Assembly (NCBI GenBank): GCA_025934375.1
Contig: JAICYD010000006.1
Coordinates: 1 to 64,000, forward strand
Reading direction: 5' to 3'
DNA: 64,000 bases
Source: Streptosporangiaceae bacterium
GTDB lineage: Bacteria; Actinomycetota; Actinomycetes; Streptosporangiales; Streptosporangiaceae
Shown here piece after piece: positions 5,993 to 31,642 of this stretch; the stretch's first letter is position 1; each line of letters starts with the position of its first letter. The position numbers and the translations under genes were made by a program. The notes under the pieces were generated by a model. It was not told where the DNA came from. It saw only the letters and a list, made by a program, of their open reading frames with translations, and made no database searches.

Positions 5993-6360
5993 GGCCGCTC
6001 CCGCCGTGCCGGGTCGGGGCACACCACATTGACCACCGCGATCCCTCCGTCGCCAGCGAGGTCGACCACGAGCGGCGCGGCCCCGGTCGCGGCGCACGCC
6101 AGCCGGGTCACGGCCGCCACCTCGGCGGCAATCCCGCCGGGTGGCCTCACCATCGTGCTGGCCACCAGGTCGCGCCAGGGCAGCGGCCGTTCGTCCCAGC
6201 CCGCGAGCGCGAGATACCCGGCATTAACGAGACCGCCCGATCCTGCCAGCGCGGCCAGTCGCGCGGCGGCCGCGTCGCACAGCGCGGCCACCAGCGCAAC
6301 CACGGGATCAGGACGGACGGCGATGCCGGTCGTGACCACATCGCTGCGCCAGAGCCTGTC
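5989..6360 (-). pseudogene. YcaO cyclodehydratase-like protein, C-terminal fragment
   Basis: Reading on the minus strand, TTGIAVRPDPVVALVAALCD followed by AAAARLAALAGSG matches the YcaO segment 'G.G.HPDPEVAL.RALTEAAQ.R...IAG'. The end, PLVVDLAGDGGIAVVNVVCP, matches the YcaO C-terminus. YcaO enzymes use ATP to activate peptide backbone amides; the ATP-binding N-terminal two thirds are absent here. Recognisable sequence stops near 6345-6360, where an unrelated plus-strand fragment begins. The stop overlaps the TfuA start (ATGA), preserving the original operon order ycaO-tfuA. Confidence 0.65.
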
Positions 6361-6573
6361 CCATGGCGTTGGGACGAAGCTGCCGAGTCGAAGGCGACGA
6401 AACTCGGCGAGCTGCTGGAGGCCGATGGATTCAGCATCATGTCGGTAGTAGCGGGGAACCGGGCCTTCGTGTTCGCCCTTGACCCGCGCTTGGGGGTTCT
6501 GTTCAACGGCAATGACCGATCGGCTGAGGTTTACCTGACCGGCTGGAGTGATTGGATTAGCACTCTGACCTGA
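6334..6573 (+). pseudogene. 3' fragment of an unidentified gene
   Basis: A plus-strand frame with protein-like composition runs to a TGA at 6571-6573: SKATKLGELLEADGFSIMSV, then NRAFVFALDPRLGVLFNGND, then YLTGWSDWISTL. It has mixed charged and hydrophobic patterning unlike a random GC-rich frame. There is no start that would make it a full gene; the only in-frame ATG (about 6439) would leave 44 residues. It overlaps the point where the YcaO fragment loses similarity on the other strand, so I read it as the tail of another gene fused there by recombination. I do not recognise the family. Confidence 0.4.
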
Positions 6574-6830
6574 CGTGTGACAAGTTAGGATCCGGCGCAA
6601 AATGCGTTACCTGCGAGGCGTGGGAATGAAAGCGTTCAGCGATACGCGGAAGTCCCTTCTTGCGACCGCAGGCGGGAGATAACGCACCCGCCACAAAGGC
6701 CAGGTGGCTCGGCCGACCGAGCACGACAGCGCAAGAGTTCATGCCTGCCTTGTCGGCGGCGCATTGCGGTCGATGCTCACGGAAGTTACTTTCTATAGGG
6801 AAGTAGCTACTAACCGTCAGCGGGTGTGTG

Positions 6831-8401
6831 ATGGCGCGCGGGTCAGGTTCTTCGGGCGGTTCCTATTCCTACAAGCAGTGGGCTGCTGCTGAGCGTGCCG
6901 CACAGCGGGAACGCGAGCAGAAAAAGAGGCAGGCTGAGAAGGACCGCCTCATGGCGGAGGCGACAGCACGCGATGAGGAAGCCGAAGCCAGGCCGCGGCT
7001 GTTGAGCAGCGGGTCGCTGGGCTGGAAGGCCTGCTGCGGTCCTCCCTAGGACGAGATCCCCGCATTCGCCTCGACTCGCTGAGAATCTCCGCTGTCGTTC
7101 CGCCCCTCGACCTCGGGGCACTGGCGAACCCCGCTCCCGCGCCGCAATGGGCGGACTTTGAACCCGTGCCGCCGTCTGCGCTGGGACGCATGTTCGGCGG
7201 CGGGCAGCGTTATCAGGCCGCCTATGAGGAAGCCGAGCGGGCGTTCGCCAGCACCCAGGCTGACTACCAGCGGCGGGAGGCCGCCAGGCAACTCGGCATC
7301 ACGGCGGCCCGCGCGGAATGGGCCAAGGCAGCGGATGAGGCCAAGCGCCAGGCACAAGCGCACAACGCCCATATCGCCGAGATCGCTGCGGGCTTCCGGG
7401 CACATGACAGGTTCACCGTCAGCGAGTACGTGCAGATGGTCCTGGACAAGTCTCCCTACCCGGAAGGGTTCCCCGCCGAAAGGCACGCCGGGTACGTGCC
7501 CGAGTCCTCGTTGCTGGCGGTGGAGTGGTTCCTTCCGACTTTCGACATCATCCCTGTGCACAAGGCGTTCCGGCATGTCAAGACGCGCAAGGCCGTCGAG
7601 CCCGTCGCCAGGCCGTCGGCCGAGGCGCAGCGGCTTTACAACGCGGTGATCGCACAGGTCGCGGTCCGCACGGTTCGCGAGGTGTTCATGGTCACCCCGC
7701 CGGACATGGTCAGCACAGTCGTGTTCAACGGGCACGTCCATACCGTCGATACGGCTACCGGGCAGAAGATCCAGCCGCCGCTCATCTCAATGCGCGCCAC
7801 GAGGGAGAAGTTCGACGAGCTCGTACTCACCGAGCCACGCTTCGACCCAGTTGCCTCGATCAAACGGCACTTCTTCGCCGCCATCTCGCAGCATCCCGAG
7901 GAGCTGAAGCCGGTCGATCCGGTGATGCCGTTCAGCCAGGCGGACCCGCGCGTCGTCGAGGCCATTGATGTGATCTCCACCCTCGACCAGCGGCCCAACC
8001 TCCTGGAACTCAGCCCCGAGGCATTCGAGTCGTTCGTCCAGAACCTGTTCGCTAAGATGGGATACGAGACCGACCGGTACCGTTCCAGCCGTGACGGCGG
8101 CATCGACTGCATGGCCTATAAGCGCGACCCTGTCGCCCCCATGAAGATCGCCGTCCAGGCCAAGCTCTACACCAAGACCGTCTCGCCGACACACGTCCGC
8201 GACCTGTACGGGACAATGCAGCACGAGGGAGCCACTCTCGGCATCATGATCACCACTTCCGGCTACGGCCCCGGCAGCGTGGAGTTCGCCAACGGCAAGC
8301 CGCTCCACCTCATCGACGGCCCCGGGCTGATCTCCATCTGCCAGGAAAACGACATCCCCGCCCGCATCCTCGGACTCGGCACCCGCAAACGACGGACGTA
8401 A
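6831..8401 (+). pseudogene. Mrr-type restriction endonuclease with a frameshift near its N-terminus
   Basis: From the ATG at 6831 the frame gives SSGGSYSYKQWAAAERAAQR and a charged coiled coil to about 6990. It then shifts by one base and continues as AVEQRVAGLEGLLRSSLGRD through to the stop at 8401. One additional base near 6994-6997 restores one protein of about 523 residues, an architecture I know from actinobacterial Mrr-like enzymes. The C-terminal domain (about 7990-8360) has the PD-(D/E)xK-like signature of this family: SPEAFESFVQNLFAKMGYET, DGGID, then KIAVQAKLY. Mrr enzymes cut modified or foreign DNA. A GTG at 7166 could start a 411-residue protein lacking the coiled coil but keeping the nuclease, so activity is possible. 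Confidence 0.7.
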
Positions 8402-8515
8402 AGAACGACCTTATGCGCATATGCCGCACACGCGACCAGTCCGACCTGGAAAGAGGAGAAAGCGGCGGACGAGCGGGTCGGGCAGGCAGCCTAGAATTGC
8501 AGGCCGGGGACCCAA

Positions 8516-26184: not shown

Positions 26185-26787
26185 ATGGCCGGCGGACGTT
26201 CACGACGACCGAATCAGATAGCGCTTCCCAGGCATGGTCGTATCGCTCAATCACTAGCAGGTAGGTCTACTGGGCTTCGCAAGGTCCGTGCGACCTCCGA
26301 TGAGGACATCCTGCAGCGCCAGTACTGCATGATCCTCGCCGAGCGGGGAGGTGATCGCTGGCTTCCCATCTGGATCGGGCCCGCCGAGGCCACGGCGCTC
26401 GCGCTGGCGCTGGAATCGGCCGAGATGCCGCGCCCGTTCACCTACAAACTGGCGGCCGGGCTTGTCGAGGCCGCCGGCTCCCGGATCACCGAAGTGAAGG
26501 TCACCCGGTTGCTGGAGAGGGTGTTCTACGCCGTCGTCGTCGTGCAGGGGCCAGGCGGGCCGCGGGACGTCGACGCGCGACCCAGCGACGCCGTGAGCCT
26601 GGCCGTGGCCAGCGGCGCGCCCATCCGGAGCAGCCCAGCGCCGCGCGCAGCGGCCCGGCCCGCAGCCCGCAGGCAGCATCGTCCAGGACACAGACCCCGG
26701 GCAACCACCCGCCGGCTGAAGCGCTCTGCCCCGCCAAGCCGGGCGGGGCCGTGGCGTCCCGTCCGCTCAGCTCAGGTCGTCGGGTAG
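26185..26787 (+). CDS. DUF151 (bifunctional nuclease-like) domain protein
   Basis: The central 100 residues match DUF151: RWLPIWIGPAEATALALALE, MPRPFTYKLAAGLVEAAGS, FYAVVVVQ and VDARPSDAVSLAVASGAPI. The family is called bifunctional nuclease from a plant member; the bacterial role is unsettled. The N-terminus is short compared with the family, whose usual first beta strand is missing. The C-terminus beyond GAPI is Arg/Pro/Ala-rich and overlaps the MarR stop region, so a small shift or true divergence at the end is possible. The start is uncertain. Confidence 0.65.
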   Translation: MAGGRSRRPNQIALPRHGRIAQSLAGRSTGLRKVRATSDEDILQRQYCMILAERGGDRWLPIWIGPAEATALALALESAEMPRPFTYKLAAGLVEAAGSRITEVKVTRLLERVFYAVVVVQGPGGPRDVDARPSDAVSLAVASGAPIRSSPAPRAAARPAARRQHRPGHRPRATTRRLKRSAPPSRAGPWRPVRSAQVVG

Positions 26788-27236
26788 CGCATCTCGATGG
26801 CGTGGCCGCCCGGGGTGTCCTGCAGGAGCTTGCGCAGCAGCCGGGCGAGCTCGGCCATCTCCCCGGGGGCTAGCCGGCGGGTGATGAGGTCATCGATGAT
26901 CGCGGTCTGCGCGCGTCCGTCGGCGAGCGTCTGCTGGCCGGCTGGCGTAAGGCGCAGCCGCACGACGCGCTTGTCGTCGCGGCCGGGTTCCCTGGCAACG
27001 AGGCCTCGGGTGACGAGCGTGTCGACGAGGCGGCTGGGACTGCCGGTTTCGGAGATCATCAGCCTGCCGAGCTCGACCAACGTGAGCGGTTCGCGGGTGG
27101 CCAGGACCTGGAGCACTTCGGCCTGGGCCGGGGTCAGGGAAGCCGCGCGCAGGTGGTCCGCCATCATCCGGCTGCCCTGGCGTTGCGCGGCGAGGATGAG
27201 GTGGCGGATCTCAGTGGCGCTGATGGTCGCAGGCAC
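26772..27236 (-). CDS. MarR-family transcriptional regulator
   Basis: Start placed at a GTG (27236) because AAGGAG lies seven bases upstream; an ATG at 27287 lies inside the operator repeats and is less likely. The winged helix shows LTPAQAEVLQVLATREPLTL, then VELGRLMISETGSPSRLVDT (recognition helix) and LVAREPGRDDKRVVRLRLTP (wing). It is divergent from the reductase-lactonase-hydrolase operon and probably represses it until a phenolic or other small ligand binds, as is usual for MarR proteins. About 154 residues, normal length. Confidence 0.85.
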   Translation of the reverse strand: MPATISATEIRHLILAAQRQGSRMMADHLRAASLTPAQAEVLQVLATREPLTLVELGRLMISETGSPSRLVDTLVTRGLVAREPGRDDKRVVRLRLTPAGQQTLADGRAQTAIIDDLITRRLAPGEMAELARLLRKLLQDTPGGHAIEMRYPTT

Positions 27237-27286
27237 TGCTGGCTCCTTGGCTATTTGACGAATGGGGGTCGGATGCATGATACTCA

Positions 27287-27338
27287 TGACACGACATCAA
27301 TGACATGTCATGAATGATATAGCATCGATGATGTGTCA
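27287..27338. promoter_or_regulatory. MarR operator cluster (palindromes)
   Basis: Between the divergent genes lie a perfect palindrome TGACATGTCA (27301-27310) and a flanking inverted pair, TGACACGACATCA (27287-27299) and TGATGTGTCA (27329-27338). The surroundings are unusually A/T-rich for this genome. This is the expected form of a MarR-controlled divergent promoter. Confidence 0.6.
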
Positions 27339-27362
27339 CTGCTCTAGTGTAGGAGGTGCGCC

Positions 27363-28373
27363 GTGACGGCGACATCCAAGTTCAGCTCCGCCGGTGGCGG
27401 CCAGGCGGCCAGCGATGTGCTGCTGCTGGGCGCGGCCGGGAACAGCGGCCAGCTCATAGCGGCCGAACTGGCTGCCCGGGGCCTGTCGATGCGGCTGGCC
27501 GGGCGCCGCCGGGGTCCGCTGGAGGACCTCGCCGTGGCGCTGGCCGCGACCGGCGCGAAGGCGGACGTGCGCGCCGTCGATGCCGGCGACCGGGAGTCGC
27601 TGGCCGAGGCGGTTGCCGGCGCCGGGGTCGTCTTGTCAACGGCCGGGCCGTTCGCCCGGCAGGCCGGCCCGGTGATCGATGCCTGCCTGGCCGCCGGTGT
27701 GCCCTACGTGGACATCGCGAACGAATGGGCGGCCGTGCGGGGATTGCTTGACCGCGATGAGGACGCGCGGGCCCGCGGGGTCGCCCTGGTGACCGGGGCC
27801 GGGTTCGGGCCCGCCGCGACCGAGGCGCTGGTGTTGCGGCTAGTCGAGCGGACAGGCGCGGTGCCCGCGCGGGTGCGCGTCGCCGCCGCCGCGGCGGTGG
27901 CCCGGCACAGCGACGGCGTGCGCCAGACGATCCAGGAGTCCTTGCCGCAGGGCGCCCTCACCTACCGGGACGGCCAACTCGTCAGCGAGGCACTCGGCAG
28001 CGGCGCCACGGTGCTGACGTTCGGCGGCGCGCAGCGCCAGCTCCTGCCCGGTCCGGTCGGTGACCTGGAGACGGCCAGGCTGGCCAGCGGCGCGGCCAGC
28101 GTGGTCGCATACATCAGCAATCCGGCGGCGCACCCCGGCGGGACCGACTCCTGGACCTGGGCTGAGGTTACCGGGCCGGACGGGCGGGTCGCCTGCGCCG
28201 AACTGCAGACCGGTGACGGCGTCCTCGCCACGGCCGCCATCGCGGCCGAGACGACCGCGCGCGTGCTGGCCGGCGCCGCACCCGGCGCGTGGACTCCCGG
28301 CGCCCTGTTCGGGGCTGGCCTCGTTACGGACGCCACGGGCGCGCGGGTGACCATGAACGGACAGCCGGCATGA
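27363..28373 (+). CDS. Saccharopine dehydrogenase-like NAD(P)-binding protein
   Basis: 336 residues from a GTG at 27363 with AGGAGG six bases upstream. The Rossmann fold begins with VLLLGAAGNSGQLIAAELAA, followed by LSMRLAGRRRGPLEDLAVAL and the VLSTAGPFARQAGPVIDACL segment. This is the saccharopine dehydrogenase/trans-acting enoyl reductase pattern. Related proteins reduce or rearrange small carbonyl compounds, but the substrate cannot be told here. First gene of a three-gene operon under the MarR regulator; its stop overlaps the next start (ATGA). Confidence 0.8.
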   Translation: MTATSKFSSAGGGQAASDVLLLGAAGNSGQLIAAELAARGLSMRLAGRRRGPLEDLAVALAATGAKADVRAVDAGDRESLAEAVAGAGVVLSTAGPFARQAGPVIDACLAAGVPYVDIANEWAAVRGLLDRDEDARARGVALVTGAGFGPAATEALVLRLVERTGAVPARVRVAAAAAVARHSDGVRQTIQESLPQGALTYRDGQLVSEALGSGATVLTFGGAQRQLLPGPVGDLETARLASGAASVVAYISNPAAHPGGTDSWTWAEVTGPDGRVACAELQTGDGVLATAAIAAETTARVLAGAAPGAWTPGALFGAGLVTDATGARVTMNGQPA

Positions 28374-29266
28374 ACGGCAAGCACAGCCCGGTCAGCCGGG
28401 TGTCGGTGATCAGCACCGGAACCGTGGACATCCGCCCGCAGCACGTGCGGTCGGACGGCACCCCGCCGCTGTGGTGGCTGATGACCTCGCGGCGCTGGAC
28501 CGGCCCGCTGCCGATCAACGTCTACGTCATCGAGCGCGGCGACGGGCTGGTCCTGTTCGACACCGGGCAGGACCGAGCCTCGGTGACCGATGCCAGCTAC
28601 CTCCCGGAAGGCCTGGCCGGAGTGCTGAACCGGCGCCTGGCGCGCTTCGACATCGCCCCGGACCAGACGCTGGCCACGCTACTGGCCAGCATCGGCTACG
28701 ACATCGCCGACGTGCACACAGCGGTTTTGTCGCACCTGCACGTGGACCACATCGGCGGGCTGCCCGCCCTGACGCACGCCAGCATCGTGATCAGCAGCAC
28801 GGAACGGCAGGCCCTGGACCGCCCGTTCGCCCAGCTGAACGGCCTGATGCGCGAACACATCATGCTCCCTAGCCTGAACTGGAGGCTCATCACCCCGCAG
28901 CCCACCGACGACCCGTCAGTCGCCCCGTTCACGGCCGTGCACGACCTGTTCGGCGACGGCAGCCTGGTCGTGCTGCCCACGCCGGGTCACACCCCTGGCT
29001 CGCTTTCCCTGCTGGTCCGCCGGCCCGGCTTTCCGCCGCTGCTGCTGGCCGGCGACCTCACCTTCGACGCGGACCTCATGGCGCACGAGCACGTGCCCGG
29101 CATCGGCCAGCACCGCCAGCTGCTCGACAGTACCCGCAAGGTCAACATGATCCGCGCGAGGTACCCGGACCTGGTCGTGCTGGCCGCTCACGACCGCGGC
29201 GCCGCGGCCAGCCTGGCCGCCGCCGAGCAGGCCAACCCCGGTAAGCAGACATCTCAGCCCGTCTAG
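28370..29266 (+). CDS. Metallo-beta-lactamase-fold hydrolase, N-acyl homoserine lactonase-like
   Basis: 298 residues, start ATG overlapping the upstream stop. Metal ligands are in place: HLHVDHIGG (H-x-H-x-D-H), PTPGHTPGSLSLL (His), GDLTFDAD (bridging Asp) and a late AAHD. The N-terminal NVYVIERGDGLVLFDTGQD is typical of the AiiA/AttM lactonase branch. The family opens lactone rings, including acyl-homoserine lactones. Being between a reductase and an alpha/beta hydrolase suggests stepwise degradation of a lactone-containing compound. Quorum quenching is possible but not shown. Confidence 0.82.
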   Translation: MNGKHSPVSRVSVISTGTVDIRPQHVRSDGTPPLWWLMTSRRWTGPLPINVYVIERGDGLVLFDTGQDRASVTDASYLPEGLAGVLNRRLARFDIAPDQTLATLLASIGYDIADVHTAVLSHLHVDHIGGLPALTHASIVISSTERQALDRPFAQLNGLMREHIMLPSLNWRLITPQPTDDPSVAPFTAVHDLFGDGSLVVLPTPGHTPGSLSLLVRRPGFPPLLLAGDLTFDADLMAHEHVPGIGQHRQLLDSTRKVNMIRARYPDLVVLAAHDRGAAASLAAAEQANPGKQTSQPV

Positions 29267-29276
29267 GAGGAACGTA

Positions 29277-30245
29277 ATGAAAGTCGACACGCTCGAATCA
29301 GTCCAGCTCGGCGGCATCACCCAGTGGATTCGCATCCGGTCCGCCGACCCGTCCAATCCGGTACTGCTGCTGATGCAGCAAGGCCCCGGGCTACCGATAA
29401 TCAACGAGGTACGCCGGTTCGAGCGCCTACTCGGCCTCGAAGACGCCTTCACCGTCGTGTACTGGGACCAGCGCGGCACCGGCCTGTCCGCGCTGCCACT
29501 GCGCCAGCGCGCGGGCGGATTCGAGATCAGCGCGGACCGGATGGTCGACGACGCCGTGTCGCTGCTGGAGCTGCTTCGCGACCGGTTCGGCGGCAAGGCA
29601 TTCATCGCCGGGTTCTCCTTCGGCGCGACGTTCGCCGCGCGAGCAGCCGCGCGGCGCCCCGATCTGGTGGCCGCACTCGTCGCAACCGGCATGGATATCG
29701 ACATCCCGGCGGCCGAGGCCCACATCTACGACTTCGCGCTCACCACCGCCCGCCAGCGCGGCAACCGACGCGCCATCCGGCAGCTAGAGGCGATCGGCCC
29801 GCCTCCCCACCTGGACGCGAAGCAGTTCACCACCCGGGCGCGCTGGACCGCCAATTTCGGGGGCGTCGTCCACGGCGCCAGCTTCGCTAGCGGGCTCCGC
29901 GACCTGCTTGCCAGCCTGGTCCGCTCGCCTGACTATCCGGCCACCGCTCTCATCAGGGCCATCCGCGGGATCAGCGCCTCCGTGACCGCGCTGCTGCCCC
30001 AGCTTGCCAGCACCGACCTCGTCACCACCATCCCCCGGCTGGAGGTGCCCATCGTCTTGGCGCAAGGGCGCCTTGACCAGGTAGCGCCCGGCCACGCGAC
30101 CCAGCGATTCCACGACTCGCTGACCGCCCCGGACAAGCAGCTGGTGTGGTTCGAGGAATCGGCCCACTCGCCGCATCTGGAAGAACCAGGCAAGTTCCGG
30201 GACCTGCTCATGTCCGTGCGGGCCAGTCATTTCCCGAAGGCCTGA
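29277..30245 (+). CDS. Alpha/beta hydrolase (prolyl aminopeptidase-like)
   Basis: 322 residues, AGGAGG at 29267-29272 before the ATG. Motifs: LLLMQQGPGLPII (the family HGGPG is altered to QQGPG), VVYWDQRGTGLS, the nucleophile elbow IAGFSFGATFA (Ser), LAQGRLDQVAP (Asp) and FEESAHSPHLEEP (His). The triad is complete. The S33-like fold covers proline iminopeptidases and many small-molecule esterases or epoxide hydrolases. The MarR-operon context favours a small-molecule substrate. Last gene of the operon. Confidence 0.8.
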   Translation: MKVDTLESVQLGGITQWIRIRSADPSNPVLLLMQQGPGLPIINEVRRFERLLGLEDAFTVVYWDQRGTGLSALPLRQRAGGFEISADRMVDDAVSLLELLRDRFGGKAFIAGFSFGATFAARAAARRPDLVAALVATGMDIDIPAAEAHIYDFALTTARQRGNRRAIRQLEAIGPPPHLDAKQFTTRARWTANFGGVVHGASFASGLRDLLASLVRSPDYPATALIRAIRGISASVTALLPQLASTDLVTTIPRLEVPIVLAQGRLDQVAPGHATQRFHDSLTAPDKQLVWFEESAHSPHLEEPGKFRDLLMSVRASHFPKA

Positions 30246-30625: not shown

Positions 30626-31642
30626 TTATCGCTTCGTCGCGAAGGCCCTGAGCCTGTCGGCGAAGGCGACGACGAGCTCGCGGAGCTCGTCTGGCTGCTC
30701 GATGGCGAACGGCAGGTCGAGTGACGCGAGCAGGGGAGGCAGCCAGTCGAGGCGCTCCGCCCGTACCTCCACGCGGTGCCATCGGCTGGCATGGGAGTCC
30801 GCCGTGGACGGAGGCTCACTCCCGGGTGAGTGCTCCGCTGGCGGAGGCTCATCGATGGTTGCGATGCTGGCGGGAAGCCGGGCACGGATCTGCCCGGTGG
30901 TCCCCTGGACCCGGAGGATCACGTGATGCCGGTAGGCCGCCGTGGCGAACCCGGACAAGACGCGCTGGGCCGGGTCGAGCCCGGGAGGCGGCTCGAACGA
31001 GCCGGGCAGCGCCCGCGCGTCAGCGATGCGGTCGAGTCGGAAGGTCCGCTCTTCGCCGATCCCCGGGTCAGCGCCGGTGACGTACCAGCGGGCCGAGTGG
31101 GAGACCAGCCCGTAGGGGTGCAGGGTGCGCTCGCTGCGCCGGCCGCCGGCAGCGGTGTACCTGAGGGAGACCGGCCGGTGATGGCGCACGGCATCGGCGA
31201 GAGTGAGCAGGACGGCGGCATCCGGGGCAGCGAGCTCGCCGGGCGGTGCCGTGAACGCGAGCGATCCGAGCACGCTGTCGAGCCTGCGGGCGACCCGGTC
31301 CGGCAGCACCCGCCGGATCTTCGCCGAGGCCGTCTCACCCGCCGTGCTGGCCGCGGTCATCAGCCCGGCGCGGTGCCCGGCGACCAGGCCGAGCAACACC
31401 GCGAGCGCTTCATCGTCGTCCAGCATGAGCGGGGGCATCCGGTACCCGGGGCCAAGGCGGTACCCGCCATAGCGGCCGCGCACCGACTCCACAGGCACGC
31501 CGAGGTCGGTCAGGTGGTCCACGTACCGCCGCACAGTGCGCTCATCGACGCCGAGCCTGCCCGCGAGCTCGGTCCTCGTCCGGATTCCGCCGGACTGCAG
31601 CAGCTCCAGCAGGGTGAGCACCTGAGTCGTAGGCCGGGCCAT
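30626..31642 (-). CDS. WYL-domain transcriptional regulator (YafY/DeoR-like)
   Basis: 338 residues. An N-terminal HTH (TQVLTLLELLQSGGIRTRTE, then GVDERTVRRYVDHLTDLGVP) is followed by VRGRYGGYRLGPGYRMPPLM. The WYL domain is around residues 140-220 (RPVSLRYTAAGGRRSERTLH, PYGLVSHSARWYVTG; the WYL triplet reads WYV), then a WCX-like C-terminus. WYL proteins bind nucleic acid or nucleotide ligands and often control neighbouring genes. It is divergent from a small VOC-fold gene across an inverted repeat, so autoregulation plus control of that gene is likely. Confidence 0.85.
   Translation of the reverse strand: MARPTTQVLTLLELLQSGGIRTRTELAGRLGVDERTVRRYVDHLTDLGVPVESVRGRYGGYRLGPGYRMPPLMLDDDEALAVLLGLVAGHRAGLMTAASTAGETASAKIRRVLPDRVARRLDSVLGSLAFTAPPGELAAPDAAVLLTLADAVRHHRPVSLRYTAAGGRRSERTLHPYGLVSHSARWYVTGADPGIGEERTFRLDRIADARALPGSFEPPPGLDPAQRVLSGFATAAYRHHVILRVQGTTGQIRARLPASIATIDEPPPAEHSPGSEPPSTADSHASRWHRVEVRAERLDWLPPLLASLDLPFAIEQPDELRELVVAFADRLRAFATKR

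Follow-up and report, generated by a model that had tools for sequence, protein, structure and literature searches.

The window analysed here is the whole stretch of 64,000 nucleotides at the start of contig JAICYD010000006.1 from a Streptosporangiaceae bacterium, and its region 26772-30245 holds four genes, namely a divergent marR gene on the minus strand and then, all on the plus strand and tightly coupled, genes for a reductase, a metallo-hydrolase and an alpha/beta hydrolase. The initial annotation had described a reductase, a lactonase-fold enzyme and an alpha/beta hydrolase beside a divergent MarR gene, and the four genes are found at that place with Pfam scores above the cut-offs. The MarR-family repressor gene (26772-27287, minus strand) matches PF01047 with 40.7 bits against a cut-off of 24.6. 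The next gene (27363-28373, plus strand) encodes a predicted saccharopine-dehydrogenase-type NAD(P)H reductase (PF03435, 51.9 against 25.1 bits); it starts with GTG behind an AGGAGG at 27351-27356, and the GxxGxxG at residues 23-29 is its predicted NAD(P)-binding Rossmann motif. The metallo-beta-lactamase (MBL)-fold, lactonase-like hydrolase (28370-29266, plus strand; PF00753, 77.0 against 22.7 bits), called the lactonase below, was studied with an AlphaFold2 model and a family alignment and carries V125, A227 and F232; its likely start is the ATG at 28370 rather than the GTG at 28289 of the mechanical list of open reading frames. The alpha/beta hydrolase (29277-30245, plus strand; PF12146, 68.2 against 27 bits, and PF00561) has a predicted triad S114/D267/H297 and a QQGPG loop. 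The coupling claimed for the three enzyme genes was borne out, since the reductase stop and the lactonase start overlap by 4 bp (ATGA) and the AGGAGG preceding the hydrolase start (29265-29270) overlaps the lactonase stop (29264-29266).

Regarding the control of these genes, strong palindromes had been claimed in front of them. An inverted repeat with 25-nt arms, 76% complementary, is indeed present at 27287-27338; however, the palindrome score of the marR-reductase intergenic region is unremarkable, being equalled by 32 of 500 dinucleotide shuffles, and palindromes alone were thus ruled out as proof of an operator. What makes the repeat unlikely to be a product of chance is its match to an operator conserved upstream of relatives. 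The candidate main operator, ACACGACATCAATGACATGT at 27289-27308, agrees with 16 of the 18 positions of the consensus ACACGACAT-NN-ATGTCGTGT; it is the sole site with at most two mismatches in the 7.4-Mb genome, and 100 shuffles of the window gave no operator match. The site lies immediately ahead of the marR start codon and, in the other direction, in front of the enzyme genes. A consensus scan places a putative sigma-70-like promoter of marR at 27306-27277, a pattern match that would overlap it. A second, weaker operator-like site, ATATAGCATCGATGATGTGT at 27319-27338, may also take part, with 12 of 18 positions matching by eye and 7 of 9 in its right half. A wide regulon in the source genome found no support, as there are two sites with three mismatches outside the window, compared with one for the reversed control pattern.

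The evidence that carries this operator comes from the relatives of the lactonase in named genomes, of which the best 80 of 102 loci were used, with gene positions taken from protein matches and reading frames. The search covered the 400 bp in front of the lactonase, allowed at most three mismatches and accepted either the inward form given above or an outward-facing one; in one of the two orientations the operator occurs upstream of 40 of the 80 relatives. Of the 60 loci that have a MarR hit 39 contain it, against 1 of the 20 others, and the controls gave none, neither in 80 base-shuffled upstream regions nor in 76 regions 1.5 kb downstream; in 58 of the 80 loci the distance from the lactonase to a MarR gene is at most 700 bp. 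As the consensus was derived from those same 80 loci, the independent test is a scan of genomes of the same family, in which the inward form with at most two mismatches was found in 40 of 341. All 29 sites with zero or one mismatch adjoin both a MarR gene and a hydrolase gene. The partner is a lactonase of the window family at 20 of them (two match only partially, L142 over 62 residues and L170 in two pieces) and an unrelated alpha/beta hydrolase at 9, and the genome G059, outside the family, adds a tenth case of the latter. The alpha/beta hydrolase of the window resembles the operator-linked alpha/beta hydrolase at 25% identity over 88 residues only.

The repressor itself gives a mixed picture, as the window MarR lies on a long branch apart from the other module MarRs. 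In 60 relatives, it has nine matches in other genomes at E <= 1e-12; the best seven (E <= 1e-22) adjoin a lactonase (five) or another alpha/beta hydrolase (two) and the last two adjoin neither, and the MarR of G059 is 45% identical to that of the window. In a MarR tree of 93 rows, 74 once near-copies were removed, the lactonase and alpha/beta kinds need three label changes, while 500 shuffles gave a mean of 8.6 and none as low; the starred branches still allow a single change between the two hydrolase kinds. On these comparisons, a single repressor-operator pair seems to control hydrolases that can replace one another, which makes a lactone or an ester the likelier inducer. The earlier suggestion that MarR controls a set including the lactonase-fold enzyme gains support from this comparative operator evidence.

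In respect of the lactonase, the statement that all metal ligands are present proved correct: H122, H124, D126, H127, H207, D229 and H274 are invariant in 82 of 82 aligned rows and make up a predicted HxHxDH~H~D~H dinuclear metal site. The AlphaFold2 model (pLDDT 91.8, built from 29 sequences) has AiiA, AhlX and GcL as top structural matches, and the first 26 matches are N-acyl-homoserine lactone (AHL) lactonases and 4-pyridoxolactonase; the substrate is not fixed by the fold. The likeness to AiiA and AttM that had been proposed extends to the fold and the metal site; it fails at the active-site tyrosine, the residue equivalent to AiiA Tyr194 (GcL Tyr223) being Phe232 here. This position is Tyr in 77 of the 82 rows, Phe in four (the window, G003, L097 and L100) and Cys in one. 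The combination V125, A227 and F232 is common to the window and G003, and among the 82 rows V125 and A227 are unique to these two; the full gene set, known from these two genomes, goes with such a lactonase in both. Among 400 randomly drawn pairs with comparable identity, none shared more than two such rare residues, the window/G003 pair having been picked after F232 was seen. Twenty-two further rows covering all three positions, which partly repeat loci among the 82, uniformly carry V227 and Y232, and their residue 125 is either Q or P. A quick tree places the two lactonases apart, and the approximately unbiased (AU) test, run without four long rows, does not reject a single clade (p 0.17).

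What the tyrosine contributes has been measured elsewhere. The Tyr-to-Phe change in GcL is reported as cutting kcat/KM for AHLs about 80-fold (C4), 20-fold (C6), 308-fold (C8) and more than 100-fold (C10), and in AiiA about 169-fold, while the same change in GcL raises paraoxonase activity about 11-fold (PMC11423328). The size of the effect is disputed, since a loss of only 30% of activity for the AiiA change is cited in PMC3776789. With Phe at this position, a lactone or ester other than an AHL becomes the likelier substrate of the window lactonase, and AHLs are not the best guess. The substrate may be one that can be hydrolysed without the tyrosine, perhaps because it has a good leaving group; an enol or aryl lactone or ester would be a guess.

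The reductase and the alpha/beta hydrolase were also traced in other genomes. Searched in 338 family genomes, with six candidates scored per genome and E <= 1e-25, the reductase was matched in four: the window's own, G003 (78%), G490 (79%) and G339 (43%). The hydrolase was found, among 60 relatives, as itself, in G003 (59%) and as a 35% relative in G046, and among 386 genomes of the phylum as itself and one 38% relative; the copy in G490 is 75% identical. Its predicted triad S114 (in GxSxG), D267 and H297 is kept in four of four aligned copies. In G003 the order is Crp-type regulator, lactonase, hydrolase and reductase, and in G490 it is Crp-type regulator, reductase and hydrolase, without a lactonase within the 12.5 kb examined. 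The two Crp-type regulators are 80% identical, and ACTTTAGTC-N11-GACTGAGGT lies upstream of the first enzyme gene in both genomes; this motif is absent from the window at up to three mismatches. As the orthologues occur together under a Crp-type regulator there, the reductase and the hydrolase make a pair that is uncommon yet stays together, with a regulator that differs, and, judged by gene content, the window is a rare variant of the MarR-hydrolase module with this pair in addition. An Acidimicrobiaceae metagenome-assembled genome (MAG; L073) has a lactonase, a hydrolase (56%) and then a reductase; as this reductase is distant and its frame ends early, L073 is left out of the count of full sets. 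In G490, the gene for the pair's Crp-type regulator is immediately preceded by a tRNA-Val gene (L180, G490:C321, 8450-8524, minus strand); tRNA genes are a common integration spot.

Around the lactonase family, a further neighbour is an SRPBCC gene (Polyketide_cyc2) of one type, present within 1.8 kb in 32 of 80 loci and not at all in 597 kb of further flank, with a profile seeded from one such neighbour. Enrichment of other neighbours, for which several seeds came from near genes, is modest, with 14 loci having an alpha/beta hydrolase within 1.8 kb (280 kb) versus 11 hits in the 597 kb beyond, and 12 Rossmann proteins versus 12 in the same stretches. Some loci without a MarR hit carry genes that look by eye like TetR, NmrA, SRPBCC or alpha/beta hydrolase genes, and one (L108) has a Crp-type regulator. 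G003 holds a second set of Crp-type regulator, lactonase and SRPBCC genes (L123, G003:C45, 2371-4326), whose lactonase frame is apparently broken. In a MAG labelled as an ANME-2 archaeon (L104, about 6001-8440), a lactonase, an alpha/beta hydrolase-like gene and a second lactonase follow one another. The Nocardia plasmid NZ_CP107850.1 (L182) carries a member of the lactonase family (59.8% identity) that follows an MFS transporter gene; the stretch also contains a transposase gene and shows no MarR among its 10 listed features, the gene table being incomplete. One plasmid member of the family is annotated 'N-acyl homoserine lactonase family protein'. A link with phages was dropped, as the sole phage matches are two Acinetobacter phage records at 23% identity and a scan of viral contigs with the hydrolase confirmed no relative. 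Beside the four genes of the window, the frame of a bifunctional-nuclease-domain gene (PF02577, 26185-26787) reaches into the marR 3' end from the opposite strand, and a WYL-domain regulator gene (30626-31642, minus strand) lies downstream of the operon.

Based on these data, we read the locus as a substrate-inducible operon for detoxification or turnover acting on a lactone or an ester, with a probability of roughly 0.55. In this scheme MarR would bind 27289-27308 and repress in both directions until a small lactone or ester, or a product thereof, released it; the metallo-hydrolase would then open the lactone or ester by means of a metal-bound hydroxide, the alpha/beta hydrolase could cleave another ester bond, in addition or instead, and NAD(P)H might serve the reductase to reduce a product that is unsaturated or bears a keto group. 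The gene order, the coupling, the folds, the metal ligands, the predicted triad, the conservation of the operator and the alternate hydrolase partners are computed. Operator binding, repression, the inducer, all the enzyme activities and the order of the steps are what we infer. That the target is a lactone, as first proposed, is likely; the further suggestion of a signal or an antibiotic is conjectural. Several findings weigh against such a reading. Most relatives of the lactonase lack the reductase and the second hydrolase, and hence these extra genes may serve another substrate. In the 341 family genomes the reversed control pattern also matches in five, and of the 15 sites in the two-mismatch class 14 are unlinked to MarR and hydrolase genes, that of the window alone being linked. 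The window MarR stands on a very long branch (3.2), separate from the other module MarRs. The curated NCBIfam cut-offs are far from being reached by the lactonase, with 88.3 of 390 bits for AttM (NF045700) and 68 of 375 for AiiA (NF045699). F232 and R276 could mark a weakened enzyme, and L073, with its lactonase, hydrolase and truncated distant reductase, retains the usual Q/V/Y at positions 125, 227 and 232. A more specific scenario, which is possible but doubtful, is that of an actinobacterial lactone- or ester-sensing MarR switch with ACACGACAT-NN-ATGTCGTGT that swaps MBL or alpha/beta hydrolases, often together with SRPBCC; in the window lineage it would have captured a Crp-regulated reductase-hydrolase pair, the lactonase losing its tyrosine for an enol- or aryl-lactone and the keto product being reduced.

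Other explanations share part of this evidence. Quorum quenching, in which the operon would hydrolyse AHLs of neighbouring bacteria, fits the nearest solved folds (AiiA, AhlX and GcL), the fact that AttM and AiiA are the best NCBIfam models, though below cut-off, and the existence of AHL lactonases of both the MBL (AiiA) and the alpha/beta (AidH, AiiM and JydB) folds (PMC9728292); it is rather unlikely, as the Tyr-to-Phe state is one that lowers AHL hydrolysis in GcL and AiiA (PMC11423328) and the reductase would be left unexplained. It is likewise doubtful that the hydrolases and the reductase inactivate a macrolide-like or polyketide lactone as a means of resistance or turnover. MarR regulators are often antibiotic-sensing, and the SRPBCC genes in 32 of 80 loci and the weak similarity of the alpha/beta hydrolases to the macrolide esterase EstT speak for this; but the SRPBCC type has no match across the 64-kb window (E <= 1e-3), the EstT score is 20 of 450 bits, far under the cut-off, and a Pfam scan of the immediate neighbours shows no transporter or resistance gene. 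Breakdown of a gamma-butyrolactone-type hormone made by the organism itself, as a form of turnover, would suit hosts that are mostly actinomycetes, many of which use such signals; as contigs that carry family members also include some with the labels Chloroflexi, Alphaproteobacteria and ANME-2 archaeon, we regard it as very unlikely. Finally, the lactonase may be decaying, so that only the reductase and the alpha/beta hydrolase matter. R276 in 1 of 82 rows (the window lactonase), F232 in 4 of 82 and the lactonase-free pair of G490 could be taken in this way, while the intact frame, the full set of metal ligands and the overlapping start codon speak against it; as V125/A227/F232 recur in G003, the substitutions look like a specific change, and decay is highly improbable.

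The single operator marks the probable induction sites of a family of uncharacterised lactonases and esterases, and, being one sequence common to these loci, it allows the inducer to be sought with a single reporter. Finding the inducer would give the lactonase family a function and show the exchange of unrelated hydrolases behind one sensor, and the form lacking the tyrosine is a natural test of the role of this residue in MBL lactonases.

In agreement with the initial annotation, no named pathway for the MarR-reductase-lactonase-hydrolase combination, and no paper on the module, appeared in the literature searched. The systems compared with the alpha/beta hydrolase are PcaD, the 3-oxoadipate enol-lactonase, and alpha/beta hydrolases like proline iminopeptidase. 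In NCBIfam the window hydrolase, like three counterparts linked to the operator in other loci, scores best with PcaD-type models (single or bifunctional), but it reaches only 50.5 of 255.85 bits, far under the cut-off. AidH, AiiM and JydB have the Ser-Asp-His triad that is predicted for it and illustrate that one lactone substrate can be common to the MBL and the alpha/beta fold (PMC9728292), whereas none of them is named among its 22 PDB matches. For the lactonase, whose lactonase function is predicted, AhlX (PDB 9khq/9kho) is the best sequence match among solved structures (4.1e-15), although at about 24% identity. AiiA ranks first in Foldseek with a target-normalised TM-score of 0.83 and 22% identity and has the same metal site, yet it differs in the tyrosine, and the window enzyme adjoins a MarR gene. 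At the level of the operon the closest parallel is attKLM/blcABC, where a local repressor likewise controls the lactonase AttM/BlcC together with an oxidoreductase; the repressor of blc is of the IclR type and its partners are aldehyde and alcohol dehydrogenases, whereas the window has MarR and a saccharopine-type reductase. Set against these systems, the locus is still a MarR-linked hydrolase operon, with conserved local regulation and a plausible function.

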